Assembly: GCF_011604685.1 (NCBI RefSeq)
Contig: NZ_CP050063.1
Span: forward strand, 310,001-374,000
Length of the DNA: 64,000 nucleotides
Direction of reading: 5' to 3'
Source: Spirosoma aureum
GTDB lineage: Bacteria > Bacteroidota > Bacteroidia > Cytophagales > Spirosomataceae
Below the pieces are notes generated by a model. The model worked only from the letters and a program-made list of their open reading frames with translations, was not told the DNA's origin and ran no database searches. This document shows positions 12,722-19,089 of this stretch, one piece after another; position 1 is the stretch's first letter, and every line of letters starts with the position of its first letter. A program made the translations under genes and the position numbers.

Positions 12722-12778
12722 ATGGGAAAGCCAACTGTAGACTTGCCAATCGTCAATCCTCATGCTGCCGGAATTGAT
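12722..12778 (+). pseudogene. IS110 element 2 transposase, 5' fragment
   Basis: Starting at ATG 12722 the plus strand reads MGKPTVDLPIVNPHAAGID, the typical start of a long IS110-family transposase, including the first catalytic Asp of the DEDD site (Asp19). At 12779 the similarity stops and the sequence becomes the end of element 1. The protein resumes as IGSRNHWVAVDQNKENVQSF from 14037. Nineteen codons are stranded here. This fragment is why the downstream piece has no proper start codon. Confidence 0.75.
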
Positions 12779-12796
12779 CGCACCGATTTCTATGGG

Positions 12797-13803
12797 TTAA
12801 GCAAGGGCTGGTGCATAATTTTTGTCATATTTTTCACCCCGGCGCACAACAGCACAAACGCGGTGAATCAACTTGTTACGGGCGGCATTAATGACTAGCA
12901 TCGGCGGCTTGCCTTCATTGATCTTGCGAACGTAGTAGTCTTGAAGGTCTCCCGCTATCTGAATCGCCGACATAGTACCCAAGTGGACCAAGGCTTTCAG
13001 CCGTTTACGAGCCTGATGACTCACCTTTGTGCGGCCTCGGATGCTACTGCCGGAGCGATACTCAAAAGGAGCTACACCCGCATGACAAGCCAATTTTTTG
13101 GGATCATTGATCGCCTGCATTTCGTTGGTGGCCAACAGTAATTCAGTAGCAATGACGGGGCCAACGCCGGGTACAGAGACCATCAAATCAAACAACTCTT
13201 TCAGGTGAGCATCCGCTTGGATCAGGTTATGAATCTGCACCTCAATCGCTTTTTGTTCTTCCTTGAGAGCGGATAAAGACTTTTTAACATTGCCTTTAAG
13301 GGTCTTCTGGAGCGACTTGCTGATGAACGTTTCCTGCTCGGTAACTGGAACTGCCAGTAAGTTGTAAGCCTGATTAAGTCGTTGACGAGTTGCGCTTAAA
13401 AAGGCCAATTTCTGCAGCACCTGGCGAGGTGGCGTCCACAGTCGGACCTGATCACGGAAGCGATAGGCATATTGAGCGATTCGCTGAGCGTCGACTTTAT
13501 CCGTTTTGCCCCGTTGCATCCCACCCGCCTGCTTGATTTGAAGAGATGACTCCAACCAGATAGATAGCTTCAAGTCATTGAGCAGCTCTAACAGATGAGC
13601 ATTATAAATTCCGGTATGCTCCATACAAAACACGGCCTGGGCTGAGTTCCAGCCTGGTAGTGCTTTTAACTGAGCTAGAGCCTCCTTGATGCCTTTGAGT
13701 TGTCAGTGTGGTCGCTCAGCACGATGCCGTGTTGCTGAGTAAACACGGCCCAATCCAGTGTGTCCTTGGCAATGTCAATACCAATGAAATAGCGAAAGTC
13801 CAT
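12797..13803 (-). pseudogene. IS110 element 1 transposase with a one-base frameshift
   Basis: From ATG 13803 the frame reads FIGIDIAKDTLDWAVF (Asp10 is the first DEDD acid) and runs to a stop 43 codons in. Adding one G at 13692-13693 restores SKGIKEALAQLKALPGW and joins the long frame to 12797, a 335-residue product of normal family length. The RuvC-like part has MEHTGIY and KTDKVDAQRIA. The C-terminal domain (Transposase_20) has VSVPGVGPVIATELL and HAGVAPFEYRSGSSIRG, which holds the catalytic serine region. As written the gene is broken, or the base was lost in sequencing. An internal ATG at 13633 would give 278 residues lacking the first catalytic acid. Confidence 0.88.
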
Positions 13804-13823
13804 GTTGCTGTTTAGTTTTGGTG

Positions 13824-13980
13824 AGTAATCAACAAATTGCTTTTACTCGAACCCTTTCGTGGGCCGCGAACCCTATTTTCTATTCGAGTCTTAGGCAATT
13901 AAAACAGAGTGGGGACTGAATCGGTGCATAGGTCTGGTTCCTTGGCGGCCCGTTAGCGTACCCCACTCTGGTTGATTACT
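13824..13980 (-). ncRNA. Candidate bridge RNA of IS110 element 1
   Basis: Lying 20 bases upstream of the transposase start, this 157-base stretch is closed by agtaatcaa (13824-13832) pairing with ttgattact (13972-13980). Inside, read 5' to 3' on the minus strand, come two arms. Arm A pairs cagagtgggg (13905-13914) with ccccactctg (13961-13970) around a 46-base loop. Arm B pairs aattgc (13835-13840) with gcaatt (13895-13900) and actcgaa (13845-13851) with ttcgagt (13883-13889) around a 31-base loop. Two loop-bearing arms just upstream of the recombinase are the layout of IS110 bridge RNAs, with target loop first and donor loop second. Loop A contains a 9-mer complementary to the element's far end (12780-12788). 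All pairings are perfect Watson-Crick; the function is inferred. Confidence 0.6.
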
Positions 13981-14036
13981 GGCAAAAGACCAAATCTTGG
14001 AATTTTACCAGCTCACAAACCTAAAGGGCGCCCCGG

Positions 14037-15344
14037 ATCGGCTCCCGTAACCATTGGGTAGCCGTCGATCAGAATAAGGAAAACGTCCAGTCATTTGGGG
14101 TTTACACGTGTGACCACCAACTTCTCATCGATCATCTACGGCAGTATGGTATTACGACGGTGGCCATGGAAAGCACGGGTAGTTACTGGCAAACCCTGTT
14201 CAATGCTTTACAGCAAGCAGGCTTTGCCGTGCTACTAGTAGGCGGTAGCCAAACGAAGAATGTACAGGGCCGCAAAACAGACGTGATTGATTGTCTGTGG
14301 ATTCAGCGGCTCCATTCGTTGGGATTATTGTCAGGTTGTTTTTTGCTGAGCGATACGCTCCAGGAACTGCGCACCTACTACTATCATCGCCAGCACTTAA
14401 TCGAACAATTAGCCACCTATACCCGTAAAATGCAGAAAGCACTCCGATTGATGAATGTTCGCCTGGACATAGCCATTCGGGACATCACTGGTAAATCCGG
14501 CTTGGCCATCATCGAAGCGATTCTGAATGGCAATCGCGATCCGCATGAATTAGCCTCCTTGGTGGACATTCGCATGAAAAAAACTAAAGAGGAGATCGCC
14601 CAATCGCTACAGGGTTGGTGGCGAGCGGAACAGTTGTTTGAATTGAAGGCGGCTTTAGAATTTTATAAACTCTACCAGAAAGCGCTGCTAGAGTGTGACG
14701 GAGTCATTGAAAAGGCTTTACGTCGTTCGGTGAAGGAGTCTATTTCAACATCAGCCGAACCTGGCCAAGTCGCCACTCGAAAGAAAACCAACAAGAACAC
14801 GCCTGCCTTTGATGTCTCCCAGATTGCGCTGAGTTATTTTCAAACCGACTTGTTTGCCATCCCTGGCATGGGACATAGTACCGTTCTGTGCTTATTAACC
14901 ACGTTAGGAAATGATATTCATAAGTTTGCCACCGCCAAAAGCTTCGCCAGTTGGCTAAGGTTAGTACCCAATAATAAAATCAGTGGTGGTCGCATCCTTT
15001 CTCATCGTACGCCCTCGGGCAAATCTCCTATCGCTATTGCCTTACGGCAGGCGGCCAACTCGATTGGCAATCAGGCCAATCACCAGTTAAGCGGCTTCTT
15101 CAAGCGAATTGCCTACAAGAAAGGTCGAGTCGCTGCCATTACGGCCACCGCCCGCAAGCTGGCGGTGATTATTTGGAACATGATTACCAAGATGGAGCCT
15201 TATAAGAAAGCTCAGGTTATAGACACGGCTCAAAAAGCCAAGGAAGCCGGTTTACGACAAGTGCAACGGCGTTTGAAGGCACTTGATTTGAGTCAAGATG
15301 AGTTAATTAGACTATTTGCAAGTCATTCTACGTCAGCCATTTAA
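14037..15344 (+). pseudogene. IS110 element 2 transposase, main part (5' end displaced)
   Basis: The frame is open from 14025 and protein similarity begins at 14037 (IGSRNHWVAVDQNKENVQ). The first ATG is 14160, within the motif AMESTGSYWQ, so translation from there loses the first DEDD acid. Other landmarks are the KTDVIDCLWIQRL segment, a helical linker (about 90-215 from 14160) and the C-terminal serine domain LFAIPGMGHSTVLCLL with ISGGRILSHRTPSGKSP. The full protein with its stranded 19 codons would be about 455 residues. A truncated 394-residue product could be made from 14160 but should be inactive. Confidence 0.88.
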
Positions 15345-16037: not shown

Positions 16038-16688
16038 TCAAACAAGCCACCGATTCTGAGTATAAGCATCATTCCAGAAGTACCATTCCAGCCGACTCGA
16101 TAAGCGAAAAGCCTCCCGCATAGCAACCAGTTCCGATGGGCTCGCTAATTCGGCAAACTGATCGGTTAAGGCAAGCATTTGTGTGACCGACTGATCGAAT
16201 GCATCACCGGCATAGGTGTCGATCCAGGCCCGGTATGGATTTTCCTGAATGGCGCGCTGGTAGATGAATTTGCCCACCTGCCGATAAATCCAGAAGCAGG
16301 GCAGAACGGCAGCCGCTCCTACTGCAAGGGACTGGAGCGAGGTGGTTGCCAGCAGGTAGTTCGTATAGGCAAAGCAGGATGGCATTTTTTTCGTTTCTGG
16401 CTGAATAGCATACAACACAAAATACGTCTCATGCAAAGCCCGTTCAACCAGAATGGCATTCTGAGCAAACTGTGTGAATTGCAACATATCGTCCGGCCTG
16501 ACCGAACGCGCAGCCAATTGATTTAGCGCTCGACTGAAATCGGCCAGGTAGAGCGCATCCTGTTGAATATAATACTGAAATGTGGCGGCCGGCAAGTTAC
16601 CTGCCATCAGTTCTGCTACAAAGCCATGTTGAAGTATGGCATCATAAACAGGCTTAATATCCTCCCAAAGCTGTTCCGTAAATTTCAT
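16038..16688 (-). CDS. tenA: TenA-family aminopyrimidine aminohydrolase (thiaminase II)
   Basis: This 216-residue helical protein hydrolyses 4-amino-5-aminomethyl-2-methylpyrimidine (a thiamin breakdown product) to HMP, and can cleave thiamin. The residues expected for activity are visible: Asp44 in YIQQDALYL, the catalytic Cys131 in VLPCFWIY, and Glu201 in RLEWYFWNDAY. It is the last gene of the thiM-thiE-thiD-tenA run, six bases after thiD, and feeds HMP to ThiD. It is therefore part of a salvage pathway; no thiC or thiG is in the window. The TPP riboswitch at 18996-19084 should control it with the others. Confidence 0.93.
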   Translation of the reverse strand: MKFTEQLWEDIKPVYDAILQHGFVAELMAGNLPAATFQYYIQQDALYLADFSRALNQLAARSVRPDDMLQFTQFAQNAILVERALHETYFVLYAIQPETKKMPSCFAYTNYLLATTSLQSLAVGAAAVLPCFWIYRQVGKFIYQRAIQENPYRAWIDTYAGDAFDQSVTQMLALTDQFAELASPSELVAMREAFRLSSRLEWYFWNDAYTQNRWLV

Positions 16689-16694
16689 TCGCGT

Positions 16695-17501
16695 CTATTG
16701 CCAAACGTTAAAAAAATGATGAACGGGCCCGTGTCCATGTCCCAGACGATAAACGGCTCCAGCCTGAAGTGCCTGCGTCAGATATACTTTGGCGGCAGCT
16801 ACTGCTTCTACGATAGACAATCCTTTGGCTAATCCGGCAGCAATGGCCGACGAAAGTGTGCAGCCTGTTCCGTGCGAATTTTCTGTTTTTATCCGCTCTG
16901 TTGGAAACCAATGCTGTTCTTCGGCAGAAATATAAAGCAAGTCTGTACTCTCAGCGGTATTCAAATGGCCGCCTTTTACCAGAATGGCTCCTGTACATAG
17001 CTTTGCCAGCTCAACAGCGGCCGGTAGCATATCTGCTGCTGTTTCTACTGGTCTACCCAATAGTACACTGGCTTCAGGTAGATTGGGGGTAATCACCATC
17101 GCCATAGGCAGAAGGTAAGTTTTCAGGGCATCGATAGCTTCATCCTGCAAGAGTTTATCGCCACTTTTGGCTACCATTACGGGATCGAGCACAATAGTTG
17201 TTACGCCAAATTCCGTTAACGTTCTGGCGACCTGCTCAATAACTTCCGGTGAGTGAAGCATCCCGATTTTAACGGCATCGGTACCAATATCATTCAAAAC
17301 AGCTTTCAATTGCTCGGCGATAAAGGCGGGCGGAACGGATAGTATTTCCGTTACCGCTTTTGTATTCTGAGCGGTGAGCGCTGTTAGCACCGACATACCG
17401 TAGCAGCCGAGTGCCGAAAACGTTTTAAGGTCGGCCTGAATGCCAGCTCCTCCCCCACTGTCAGAACCGGCAATCGTTAAAGCCCTGATGTATCTTTTCA
17501 T
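16695..17501 (-). CDS. thiD: Hydroxymethylpyrimidine/phosphomethylpyrimidine kinase
   Basis: This 268-residue ribokinase-fold enzyme phosphorylates HMP twice to HMP diphosphate. It begins with IAGSDSGGGAGIQADLKTFS, the standard ThiD start and substrate loop, continues with VLDPVMVAKSGD, and ends with NSHGTGCTLSSAIAAGL, the anion-hole and catalytic Cys motif. The length is normal. It lies 12 bases after thiE and 6 before tenA, so all are surely one transcript. It takes HMP from TenA and supplies ThiE. Confidence 0.96.
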   Translation of the reverse strand: MKRYIRALTIAGSDSGGGAGIQADLKTFSALGCYGMSVLTALTAQNTKAVTEILSVPPAFIAEQLKAVLNDIGTDAVKIGMLHSPEVIEQVARTLTEFGVTTIVLDPVMVAKSGDKLLQDEAIDALKTYLLPMAMVITPNLPEASVLLGRPVETAADMLPAAVELAKLCTGAILVKGGHLNTAESTDLLYISAEEQHWFPTERIKTENSHGTGCTLSSAIAAGLAKGLSIVEAVAAAKVYLTQALQAGAVYRLGHGHGPVHHFFNVWQ

Positions 17502-17513
17502 TTTTACAAAACT

Positions 17514-18134
17514 CTAAATACTAATAAGTTGGATCAGTTCGCGGGTGGCTTCGTACGGTGACGGATGGCCACAAATAGCTGATACAACTGCTACTCCCGA
17601 TGCACCGGCCCGAATGACGTCCTGAATGTTGCTGGCTTTTATACCACCTATTGCGAATGTTAGCAAATTTGTCTGGGTGCAAATTTGCCGAAGCCCCTCC
17701 AATCCAAGTAAACTGGAGGTATCCTGCTTGGTTCCGGTTGGAAATATGGTTGCAATGCCGAAATAGTCTACATCTGCACCAGCCGCAGCCTGTAATTCAA
17801 TTAAACTATTGATAGACAGCCCAATGATTTTATCAGGGCCAATCAGCGATCGGACCAGTTGATACGGTATATCGTCCTGACCGACGTGAACGCCGTCGGC
17901 ATCAATGGCTAGCGCAACATCGGCCCGATCATTGACGATCAGCCGGGCACCGTGAGCCTGAGTAATGCGTTTCAACTTAACGCCAAGTGCAATAAAAGTG
18001 CGGGTGGATAACGCCTTTTCGCGTAGTTGCACCCACTTCACTCCTGCCCGGCAGGCTTCTTCAACCACAAAAGGCAATGTATGACCTGCTGCCTGGGCGA
18101 CTTCGCTATCAGTCACTAAATAGAGTCCGCTCAC
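17514..18134 (-). CDS. thiE: Thiamin phosphate synthase
   Basis: This 206-residue TIM-barrel enzyme joins HMP diphosphate and hydroxyethylthiazole phosphate into thiamin phosphate. Family motifs are in order: VQLREKALS (about 36-44), LIVNDRADVALAIDADGVHV with the Mg and pyrophosphate ligands, DYFGIATIFPTGTK, and FAIGGI. Its start overlaps the thiM stop by four bases (ATGA), a sign of translational coupling. Confidence 0.96.
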   Translation of the reverse strand: MSGLYLVTDSEVAQAAGHTLPFVVEEACRAGVKWVQLREKALSTRTFIALGVKLKRITQAHGARLIVNDRADVALAIDADGVHVGQDDIPYQLVRSLIGPDKIIGLSINSLIELQAAAGADVDYFGIATIFPTGTKQDTSSLLGLEGLRQICTQTNLLTFAIGGIKASNIQDVIRAGASGVAVVSAICGHPSPYEATRELIQLISI

Positions 18135-18937
18135 GATTGCGTTAGCTGAAGCCGATTTGTTATAGCCGCTTCTAATAATTCATAAAGCGAATTAAGAAAG
18201 TTGACCTGTAGGCTACCAGGAGCCGGATCCTTTTCAACGGCAATTTCACCAGCAATACCCATAACAGCCATAGCATGCGTAGCTGCCTGGAAATAATCGG
18301 CATTTATGGCTGAAAACGCGCCGGTCAAAGCGGTGGCGGTGCAGCCCATGCCCGTTACTTTCGTCATAAGTGGATGCCCATTTTTGATAGTAGCAACCCG
18401 TTCACCCAGAATTACATAATCGGTAGCCCCACTAATGACCACCACCGAGCCCCATACCAAACTTAGCCGCTGGGCAGCCTCAACGGCAGCCTCTGAGCCA
18501 TAAAGACTATCAACACCTTTGGTTTGTGCGTTCAGGCCAGCGAGTGCCATAATTTCAGAAGCATTTCCCCGAATGATTGTAGGAGCGGCTAACTCCAATA
18601 ACTCTTCGCTAACCCTGTTCCGATAGGCCGTTGCGCCAACCCCGACCGGATCGAACACGATGGGTTTACCTAATGCTTTCGCCCGATGCATGGCGAGCTT
18701 CATTCCTGCCACAAACGTAGCATCGAGTGTACCGATATTAACGACCAGAGCGTTTGAAATAGACACAAAATCCTCTACTTCTTCCGGCGCATGAACCATA
18801 GCGGGCGATGCCCCCAACGCCAGCAGTGCATTGGCAGTATTATTCATCACTACGAAGTTGGTAATATTGTGGACAAGCGGAGCCTGAGCGCGAATTTGCT
18901 CGACGTCGGTCCAGATCAGTTGGGCTTCCTGAGACAT
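18131..18937 (-). CDS. thiM: Hydroxyethylthiazole kinase
   Basis: This 268-residue enzyme phosphorylates the thiazole alcohol of broken thiamin for reuse by ThiE. It shows PLVHNITNFVVMNNTANALL at the start, PIVFDPVGVGAT in the middle and KVTGMGCTATALTGAF, with the catalytic Cys, near residue 200. It is the first gene of the operon. Its ATG at 18937 directly follows a 7-bp hairpin (18938-18944 with 18961-18967) that forms the output end of the TPP switch. Having thiM and tenA together with thiD and thiE marks the operon as salvage. Confidence 0.96.
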   Translation of the reverse strand: MSQEAQLIWTDVEQIRAQAPLVHNITNFVVMNNTANALLALGASPAMVHAPEEVEDFVSISNALVVNIGTLDATFVAGMKLAMHRAKALGKPIVFDPVGVGATAYRNRVSEELLELAAPTIIRGNASEIMALAGLNAQTKGVDSLYGSEAAVEAAQRLSLVWGSVVVISGATDYVILGERVATIKNGHPLMTKVTGMGCTATALTGAFSAINADYFQAATHAMAVMGIAGEIAVEKDPAPGSLQVNFLNSLYELLEAAITNRLQLTQS

Positions 18938-18972: not shown

Positions 18973-18995
18973 AGGAGAGCGAACGACTAGACGCT

Positions 18996-19084
18996 AACTT
19001 TTCCCTACGGCAGTATAAACGGCATCAGGTAATGAGGGTATTCTCTCAGTCTATCCTGTTTCGGGACAGACACCCCTAAAGTTG
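18996..19084 (-). ncRNA. TPP riboswitch (THI element)
   Basis: On the minus strand the conserved thi-box parts appear in order: AGGGGTGTC, then a P3-like extension, CTGAGA followed by gaATACCC, ACCTGAT, and GCCGTAGGGAA. Helix P1 is AACTTT (19083-19078) with AAAGTT (19001-18996). Binding of thiamin diphosphate should close P1 and shut off the thiMEDtenA operon. The motifs are unambiguous; the exact ends are set by P1. Confidence 0.95.
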
Positions 19085-19089
19085 TCTGG

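Follow-up and report, generated by a model that had tools for sequence, protein, structure and literature searches.

The window, a 64,000-nucleotide stretch of the single 8.9 Mb contig of the Spirosoma aureum genome, contains two IS110-family elements, one lying inside the transposase gene of the other. The interrupted gene belongs to element 2, which is encoded on the plus strand; the first 19 codons of its transposase (MGKPTVDLPIVNPHAAGID) occupy positions 12722–12778, in the same order as in the homologues L052, L053, L055, L056 and L057, and from the sequence and the homologues the remainder of the gene runs from 14037 to 15344. Element 1 proper lies on the minus strand at 12786–14026, from its left end CTTTAGG to its right end ATAGAAAT, and its far end with the adjoining bases reads ATAGAAATCGGTGCG (12793–12779, minus).

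The transposase gene of element 1 (12797–13803, minus; ATG at 13803) encodes a DEDD transposase with a C-terminal Transposase_20 domain, as is characteristic of the IS110 group (Pfam DEDD_Tnp_IS110 and Transposase_20). The gene is frameshifted, with a 4-nt gap in the alignment to the open relative L002 (2696233–2697490 of the main contig of the same genome), and the listed open frame covers only 13633–12797. This open frame scored 119.1 against an NCBIfam cut-off of 140, and L002 scored 167. The closest solved relatives of L002 are IS621 (8wt6, E 3.4e-26) and then ISCro4 (9t56, E 4.2e-24). Because its own transposase is broken, this copy of element 1 is probably inactive by itself. The non-coding DNA of element 1 comprises approximately 220 nt upstream of the gene (14026–13804) and approximately 11 nt downstream (12796–12786), which is the long upstream and short downstream arrangement of the IS110 group. 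Element 1 lacks the long downstream non-coding region of IS1111-type elements, and inspection by eye alone revealed no IS1111-type subterminal inverted repeats (7–17 bp) in the ends CTTTAGG and ATAGAAAT.

The stretch between positions 12778 and 14037, read on the minus strand, starts with the left half of CCGGGGCGCCGGTGCG, continues with element 1 and closes with the right half. The two halves together form a GC-rich micro-hairpin of 16 bp, with a 4-bp stem, a 4-nt loop and a 4-nt tail. Its left half, CCGGGGCGCC (positions 1–10 of the target; 14027–14036, minus), is absent from eight uninterrupted homologues of element 2, and its right half, GGTGCG (positions 11–16), lies at 12779–12784 on the minus strand; a shared C, target position 10, is present at 12785 and again at 14027. 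The eight homologues (L052–L059) align across this place with neither hairpin nor insertion sequence, and five of the seven that were translated carry GIDIGS at the site, which was not picked up in the other two. A CG core with a target-site duplication was considered and rejected, since the homologues read GATATC or GACATC without duplication. As the hairpin halves flank element 1 inside element 2, insertion of the micro-hairpin must have preceded that of element 1. It is proposed that element 2 was present first, that the 16-bp micro-hairpin then entered its transposase gene and that element 1 subsequently entered the micro-hairpin; the element 1 transposase gene acquired its frameshift at some point.

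The leader of element 1 is strongly folded. The 196-nt strand has a minimum free energy of −71.3 kcal/mol, compared with −48.7 ± 4.0 in 200 dinucleotide shuffles (z = −5.63), none of which was as low. The core of the candidate bridge RNA (13824–13980, minus) is closed by an outer stem, AGTAATCAAC/GTTGATTACT, pairing 13980–13971 with 13833–13824; an initial, sequence-only reading of this DNA had given this stem 9 bp, and it has 10. Inside it lie two arms, both of the size and at the place which that reading had proposed. Loop A (13905–13970, minus) is a 46-base loop on a perfect 10-bp stem, CAGAGTGGGG/CCCCACTCTG (13970–13961 with 13914–13905), and loop B (13845–13889, minus) is a 31-base loop on an arm of 6 + 7 bp, with the stem at 13889–13883/13851–13845. 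The minimum free energy fold further contains a 5′ stem-loop at 13979–14014 (minus), which was missing from the initial description. In a search of the whole window at Rfam gathering thresholds, the only family found was the TPP riboswitch, and no family matched the leader RNA.

Relatives of element 1 were found by DNA search in 30 of 59 related genomes. A covariance model, R1, built from 12 leaders gave 119 matches in 30 of the 36 genus genomes, and across the order the leader covariance model matched 30 of 241 genomes and 19 of 103 genera. From the 119 R1 places 118 were taken, omitting a 51-nt partial match, and 117 leaders were examined; L030 was skipped, as its orientation was unrecorded. 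Both ends were parsed in 78 of the 117, to which the counts of ends and targets below refer; the remaining 39 lack a parsed end pair, some lying at contig ends and some having no right end within ~2.6 kb. The latter include four leaders of equal score in one genome (L129, L130, L132 and L133 in G023), which are possibly interrupted or short derivatives. Relatives were parsed with CTTTAG and GAAAT as end anchors, the 16-mer being composed of the 10 bases that precede CTTTAG and the 6 that follow ATAGAAATC, and with GATT and AAGG as anchors for the right target guide and the right donor guide, respectively. Because these motifs were used as search anchors, the constancy of CTTTAG, the end motifs, GATT and AAGG in relatives is no evidence. 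Six of the 78 were dropped before the later guide counts and kept in the figures of 51/73 and 65/78 given below: in L144 and L158 the leader and right end apparently belong to separate nested elements, the ends of L148, L205 and L212 have decayed, and L164 has a different leader and left end.

The structure with two internal loops is conserved among the leaders, as in the IS110 group. Across five helices in 14 aligned leaders, both sides had changed in 14 of 31 pairs (shuffled mean 7.0) and standard pairs filled 89.5% of cells (shuffled mean 83.2), values that no shuffle out of 500 reached; the compensatory changes that the sequence-only reading had called for in other copies are thus present. 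Sliding the partner columns by one lowered the paired cells to 43.6–45.1%. The loop B stem was paired in 97.6% of cells (six pairs tested) and the loop A stem in 92.9%, with changes on both sides in five of nine pairs. The outer stem ranks last among the five, with 76.6% of cells paired and changes on both sides in six of ten pairs.

The bases that flank these elements belong together. Joining the left and right flanks gave a 16-mer with a complete 4-bp Watson–Crick stem in 64 of the 78 parsed elements. Both stem pairs that are split by the insertion were Watson–Crick in 65 of 78 elements (permuted mean 31.4) and, after collapse to distinct 16-mers, in 29 of 40 (permuted mean 15.0); none of 10,000 permutations reached either value, the collapse being the means by which kinship among copies, otherwise ignored by the permutations, was taken into account. 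The target's own hairpin therefore covaries across a 1.2-kb insertion.

Loop A contains two stretches that follow the split hairpin. In element 1, the left target guide CGGGCCGCC (13944–13952, minus) copies target positions 2–10 with eight of nine matches, the one misfit being at position 6, and the right target guide GCACCG (13922–13927, minus) is complementary to positions 10–15 at all six; together the guides fit 14 of 15 positions. Among relatives, 51 of 73 have an exact right target guide (8.5 on average under permutation; 0/10,000 as high), and 15 different right-half target types occur with an exact guide, so that the loop bases track the flanks, which the initial reading had named as a test of its proposal. 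Without the six dropped elements, exact guides number 50 of 68, rising to 64 of 68 when wobble pairs are allowed; L201, L202, L203 and L208 are left as misfits. The left target guide matched on average 7.69 of 9 bases, compared with 5.95 under permutation and 6.29 in the highest of 200 permutations. Among distinct pairs with at least seven of nine matches, guide A stood against target C at position 10 in 13, and the other mismatches lay at positions 2, 3 and 5–7. One loop of the RNA covaries with the target, as in the IS110 group. Beside the right target guide, AUU (13919–13921, minus) is complementary to the donor AAT at the right end of the element and may serve as a handshake guide, a role suggested by IS621 (PMC11208158); GATT is invariant in the 14 aligned leaders.

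These assignments alter one element of the sequence-only reading. It had paired GCACCGATT (13927–13919, minus) with AATCGGTGC (12788–12780, minus) as the far end of the element; the positions hold, whereas AATCGGTGC is not a single element end, being composed of AAT from the element end, the shared base C and GGTGC, a piece of the right half of the 16-bp target. The poor match to element 2, which had been left unexplained, is accounted for because the guides fit the micro-hairpin lying in element 2 and not element 2's own sequence.

Loop B appears to read the element itself. The left donor guide ATAGAAAA (13876–13883, minus) matches the right end ATAGAAAT at seven of eight bases, and the ATAGAAA noticed earlier in this loop does start at 13883 on the minus strand; the right donor guide AAAGGG (13852–13857, minus) is complementary to CCCTTT at the left end. 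The left donor guide equals the right end in 64 of 72 relatives, with ATAGAAAT in both in 46 and ATGGAAAT in both in 18; as guide and end were searched with the same motif, the informative part is the joint A-to-G change, which is possibly one event. The right donor guide of relatives was located through the AAGG anchor, so its match is not independent. With loop A tracking the split target and loop B apparently the donor end in relatives, the two matches do abut in the manner of guides, as had been supposed. The shared C at target position 10 is the sole base common to both junctions, and is C in 77 of the 78 parsed elements; on the left, 76 of 78 have G or C at position 9, and the right-end motif used has T there. 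By analogy, these junctions would fit a two-base core with a fixed second base, as in IS621, whose second core base is described as almost invariant (PMC11208158).

Taken together, it is very probable (approximately 0.93) that the leader of element 1 is a bridge RNA of the IS110 group, in which loop A reads a 16-bp micro-hairpin as target and loop B reads the joined donor ends. In comparisons of sequence, this reading draws support from the fold energy (z = −5.63), relatives in 30 of 36 genus genomes, covarying stems, the element ends, guides that track a split target, and sites that are empty or hold the hairpin alone; the initial proposal of an IS110 bridge RNA is thereby supported. Such an RNA would be transcribed in the direction of the transposase gene and bound by protein. 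The left guide of loop A would copy target positions 2–10 and the right guide would pair with positions 10–15, while loop B would read the element's own joined ends, ATAGAAAT from the right end and CCTTT from the left, as donor. The recombinase would then join a circular form of the element to the micro-hairpin by strand exchange at position 10, leaving the hairpin split between both flanks. The fit of the guides to the hairpin would explain where element 1 inserted, and the hairpin itself apparently reached the adjacent element 2 before element 1 did.

Sites without the insertion sequence bear directly on the identity of the target. Homologous sites free of the element hold the reconstructed 16-mer in four cases, namely L108 for L126, L140 and L163 (16/16 each) and L157 for L188 (15/16). 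At the L140 site three states are seen: some homologues have neither insertion, L108 has only the hairpin, and L140 has both. Hairpin-free homologues without any other loss or gain of bases were also found for L146, L173, L195/L196 and L197. Alignments of empty sites were too loose for use at L103, L106, L116, L123, L155, L180, L184, L201 and L202; the sequence expected for the empty site of L123 was not found, and no repeat among the 28 listed for the genome is of the length that the flanks predict. In a rival reading, loop A would be the donor-binding loop, with guide polarity reversed relative to IS621 and with CCGGGGCGCC and GGTGCG as the true element ends, as bases of this type adjoin the element in parsed copies and track loop A. 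That reading is extremely improbable in view of hairpins that lack an insertion sequence: the IS-free sites just described contain both halves as a single continuous 16-mer, comparable 16-mers stand alone in many other insertions, and taking the halves as target gives the plain geometry of IS621.

The leader's strong fold and its position immediately ahead of the start codon would also suit a cis-acting control of the transposase mRNA, such as an attenuator or translation switch, with no guide function. This is very improbable, since in many copies the loop bases track DNA outside the element, for which mRNA control has no need; guide and control roles could coexist. The stems would be possible on either strand, and the RNA might accordingly be made from the opposite one. 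In favour of that strand, one pair of the loop A stem is A–C in 3 of 14 leaders, corresponding to G–U on the other strand, and one distinct left-guide mismatch (position 5, target G, guide A) is of a type that fits the other strand. Against it, one pair of the loop B stem is G–U in 8 of 14 leaders. Stem wobbles as a whole are mixed as to strand. All 14 elements whose right guide is rescued by wobble fit RNA on the transposase strand and none fits only the other, giving 64 of 68 for the former against 50 of 68 for the latter. These rescues represent few independent events because they comprise no more than three mismatch types: target T corresponds to a guide-complement C at position 13 (nine elements) or 15 (one), and in four elements target G corresponds to a guide-complement A at position 12. 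Eight distinct left-guide mismatches likewise fit the transposase strand and the remainder, bar the one mentioned, fit neither. Transcription from the opposite strand would, moreover, reverse the guide order relative to IS621, and is very improbable. A bridge RNA on the transposase strand remains the preferred reading.

Copies within one genome may share the same parsed guide bases and yet occupy hairpins that differ in their loop (L142/L143, L116/L117, L151–L153 and L175–L180). Such copies provide natural data on mismatch tolerance for RNA-guided recombinases, and the relatives as a whole form a natural data set on which bridge RNA guide bases follow which target bases. Two groups of copies, distinguished by their 16-mers, read opposite orientations of the hairpin, one with CCGGGCCGCCGGAGCG-like 16-mers and the other with the reverse complement CCGCTCCGGCGGCCCG, shifted by one base. 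In a separate observation, the base that follows the hairpin in L189, L190 and L208 differs from that of their homologues. A TCCG tail is followed by A in these three and in L165, L172, L174, L182, L184, L188 and L206, and the empty-site homologues of L189, L190 and L208 have T or C instead of A; perhaps a 17th base replaces one target base.

Micro-hairpins also occur in numbers without the insertion sequence. Alignments of 220 sequences (the fetched loci and the window) contained 275 gap events of 10–30 nt, of which 173 were exactly 16 nt. A perfect 4-4-4 hairpin lay within two bases of the gap in 204 of the 220 events of 15–17 nt, compared with a mean of 37.6 and a maximum of 54 in 200 rounds of shuffled inserts; these events were drawn from loci fetched for element 1-type insertion sequences, some of them overlapping, and hence lean towards transposase genes. 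Merging by locus or shared flanks reduced the 204 to 167 clusters, 79 in one orientation and 88 in the other, with 92 different 16-mers, whose tails include TGCG, TGCC, AGCG and ACCG. Of the 167 clusters, 142 have A or G immediately before the hairpin; after it, 112 have G as the first base and 140 have T or C as the second, so that the flanks are mostly (A/G)^G(T/C), with no target duplication seen. GC-rich 16-bp hairpin insertions are numerous in individual Spirosoma loci (for example L078 at ~2025–2697, L139 at 1728–2223 and L158 at 1303–2382), frequently within transposase genes, whose reading frame an insert of this length shifts. At the L140 site, where L108 has L140's hairpin alone, L106 has a different hairpin in the other orientation at the homologous place.

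The pattern NCGGNCCGCCGNWGCG had 1629 matches in the 36 genus genomes, compared with 58 for the reversed pattern, and 19 compared with 3 in the window's own genome. A census of micro-hairpins within the window showed no enrichment, with three candidates, where 40 simulated sequences had 1.8 on average and at most 5. In 23 other genomes the pattern matched in two, G047 (1, control 6) and G052 (56, control 7), the latter from another family of the order. Twenty regions, taken from one genome's 34 matches, contained 21 matches, and the free stem pair was also Watson–Crick in 15 of these; some matches interrupt a short tandem repeat (L261) and some lie in palindromes (L263 and L264).

Hairpin counts rise with the counts of leaders (rho 0.55), and six genomes without the insertion sequence still have 5–37 matches. 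A Y1 transposase (PF01797) was considered as carrier of the micro-hairpins. It was found in 29 of the 36 genus genomes and not in the window's own; hairpin counts correlate with its counts (rho 0.48, p 0.003), and this candidate was set aside, as seven genomes without a Y1 match still carry 5–92 matches. A proposal that stands evenly balanced is that the micro-hairpins constitute a kind of tiny mobile DNA not described before, which is spread in Spirosoma by machinery that is neither the element 1-type insertion sequence nor Y1, and that a lineage of bridge-RNA elements has specialised on them as landing sites, with groups of copies reading opposite orientations and guides following compensatory changes. 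The analysis in any case exposes an abundant 16-bp insertion, and an unusual target that deserves study of its own.

The IS621 bridge RNA is described as having a 5′ stem-loop followed by the target loop and then the donor loop, with a 5′ guide resembling the left half and a 3′ guide complementary to the right half (PMC11208160). The best solved-structure match of L002, IS621 shares with element 1 the upstream non-coding region, the 5′ stem-loop, loop order, guide polarity and possible handshake bases (PMC11208160, PMC11208158). Element 1 differs in its 16-bp micro-hairpin target, in having only C10 common to both ends where IS621 has a clean shared dinucleotide, and in the extra outer stem that closes both loops. 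The ISEc21 seekRNA (PMC11187229) is alike in its upstream non-coding region, in the IS110 order of a bottom-strand and then a top-strand match, in a target within the transposase gene of another insertion sequence and in the lack of duplication; ISEc21 reads the coding sequence itself, whereas element 1 reads a micro-hairpin inside it.

A bridge-RNA element that reads a palindrome is not new, because IS110 elements have been described as inserting into REP elements, and ISPa11, ISPpu9, ISPpu10 and others are reported to insert in REP sequences (PMC1525189). They resemble element 1 in a high preference for a short palindromic repeat, and differ in that the palindrome of element 1-type copies is 16 bp, lacks a GTAG/CGTC tag and often lies inside transposase genes. 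The GTAG- and CGTC-tagged REP families are described as 20–40 bp long, with stems of 8–9 bp in the CGTC families (PMC3733652). Like the micro-hairpins, they are short repeated hairpins with an unpaired tail, inside and outside genes, whereas the micro-hairpin has 16 bp and a 4-bp stem, and neither GTAG nor CGTC occurs among the 20 commonest micro-hairpin tails. Size and the missing tag set the micro-hairpin target apart from REP as there described. The titles and abstract openings searched contain no description of a 16-bp Spirosoma hairpin, and no paper on Spirosoma with IS110 was found in the literature searched.

Outside the genus, five leaders from other genera of the family were examined. 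Four of them (L220, L221, L222 and L224) lie in such hairpins and L223 has the left half only; L235 and L239 duplicate the L221 and L222 sites. In six relatives from the Flavobacteriaceae (L244, L245, L246, L248, L252 and L254), parsed on the right side only, CAT(A/G)GAAATC follows the gene. In records named Flavobacterium sp. SUN052, the proteins of two relatives, L228 and L236, are 89% and 85% identical to that of element 1. This may reflect recent transfer, or else misnaming or contamination of the record; the split target of L228 has three of four stem pairs, and the left half in L236 is CCGGTCCGCC. Elsewhere in the window, the TPP riboswitch (RF00059, 61.8 bits) lies at 18985–19087 on the minus strand, and downstream of it, at 16038–18937, are genes which we take to be thiamine genes.
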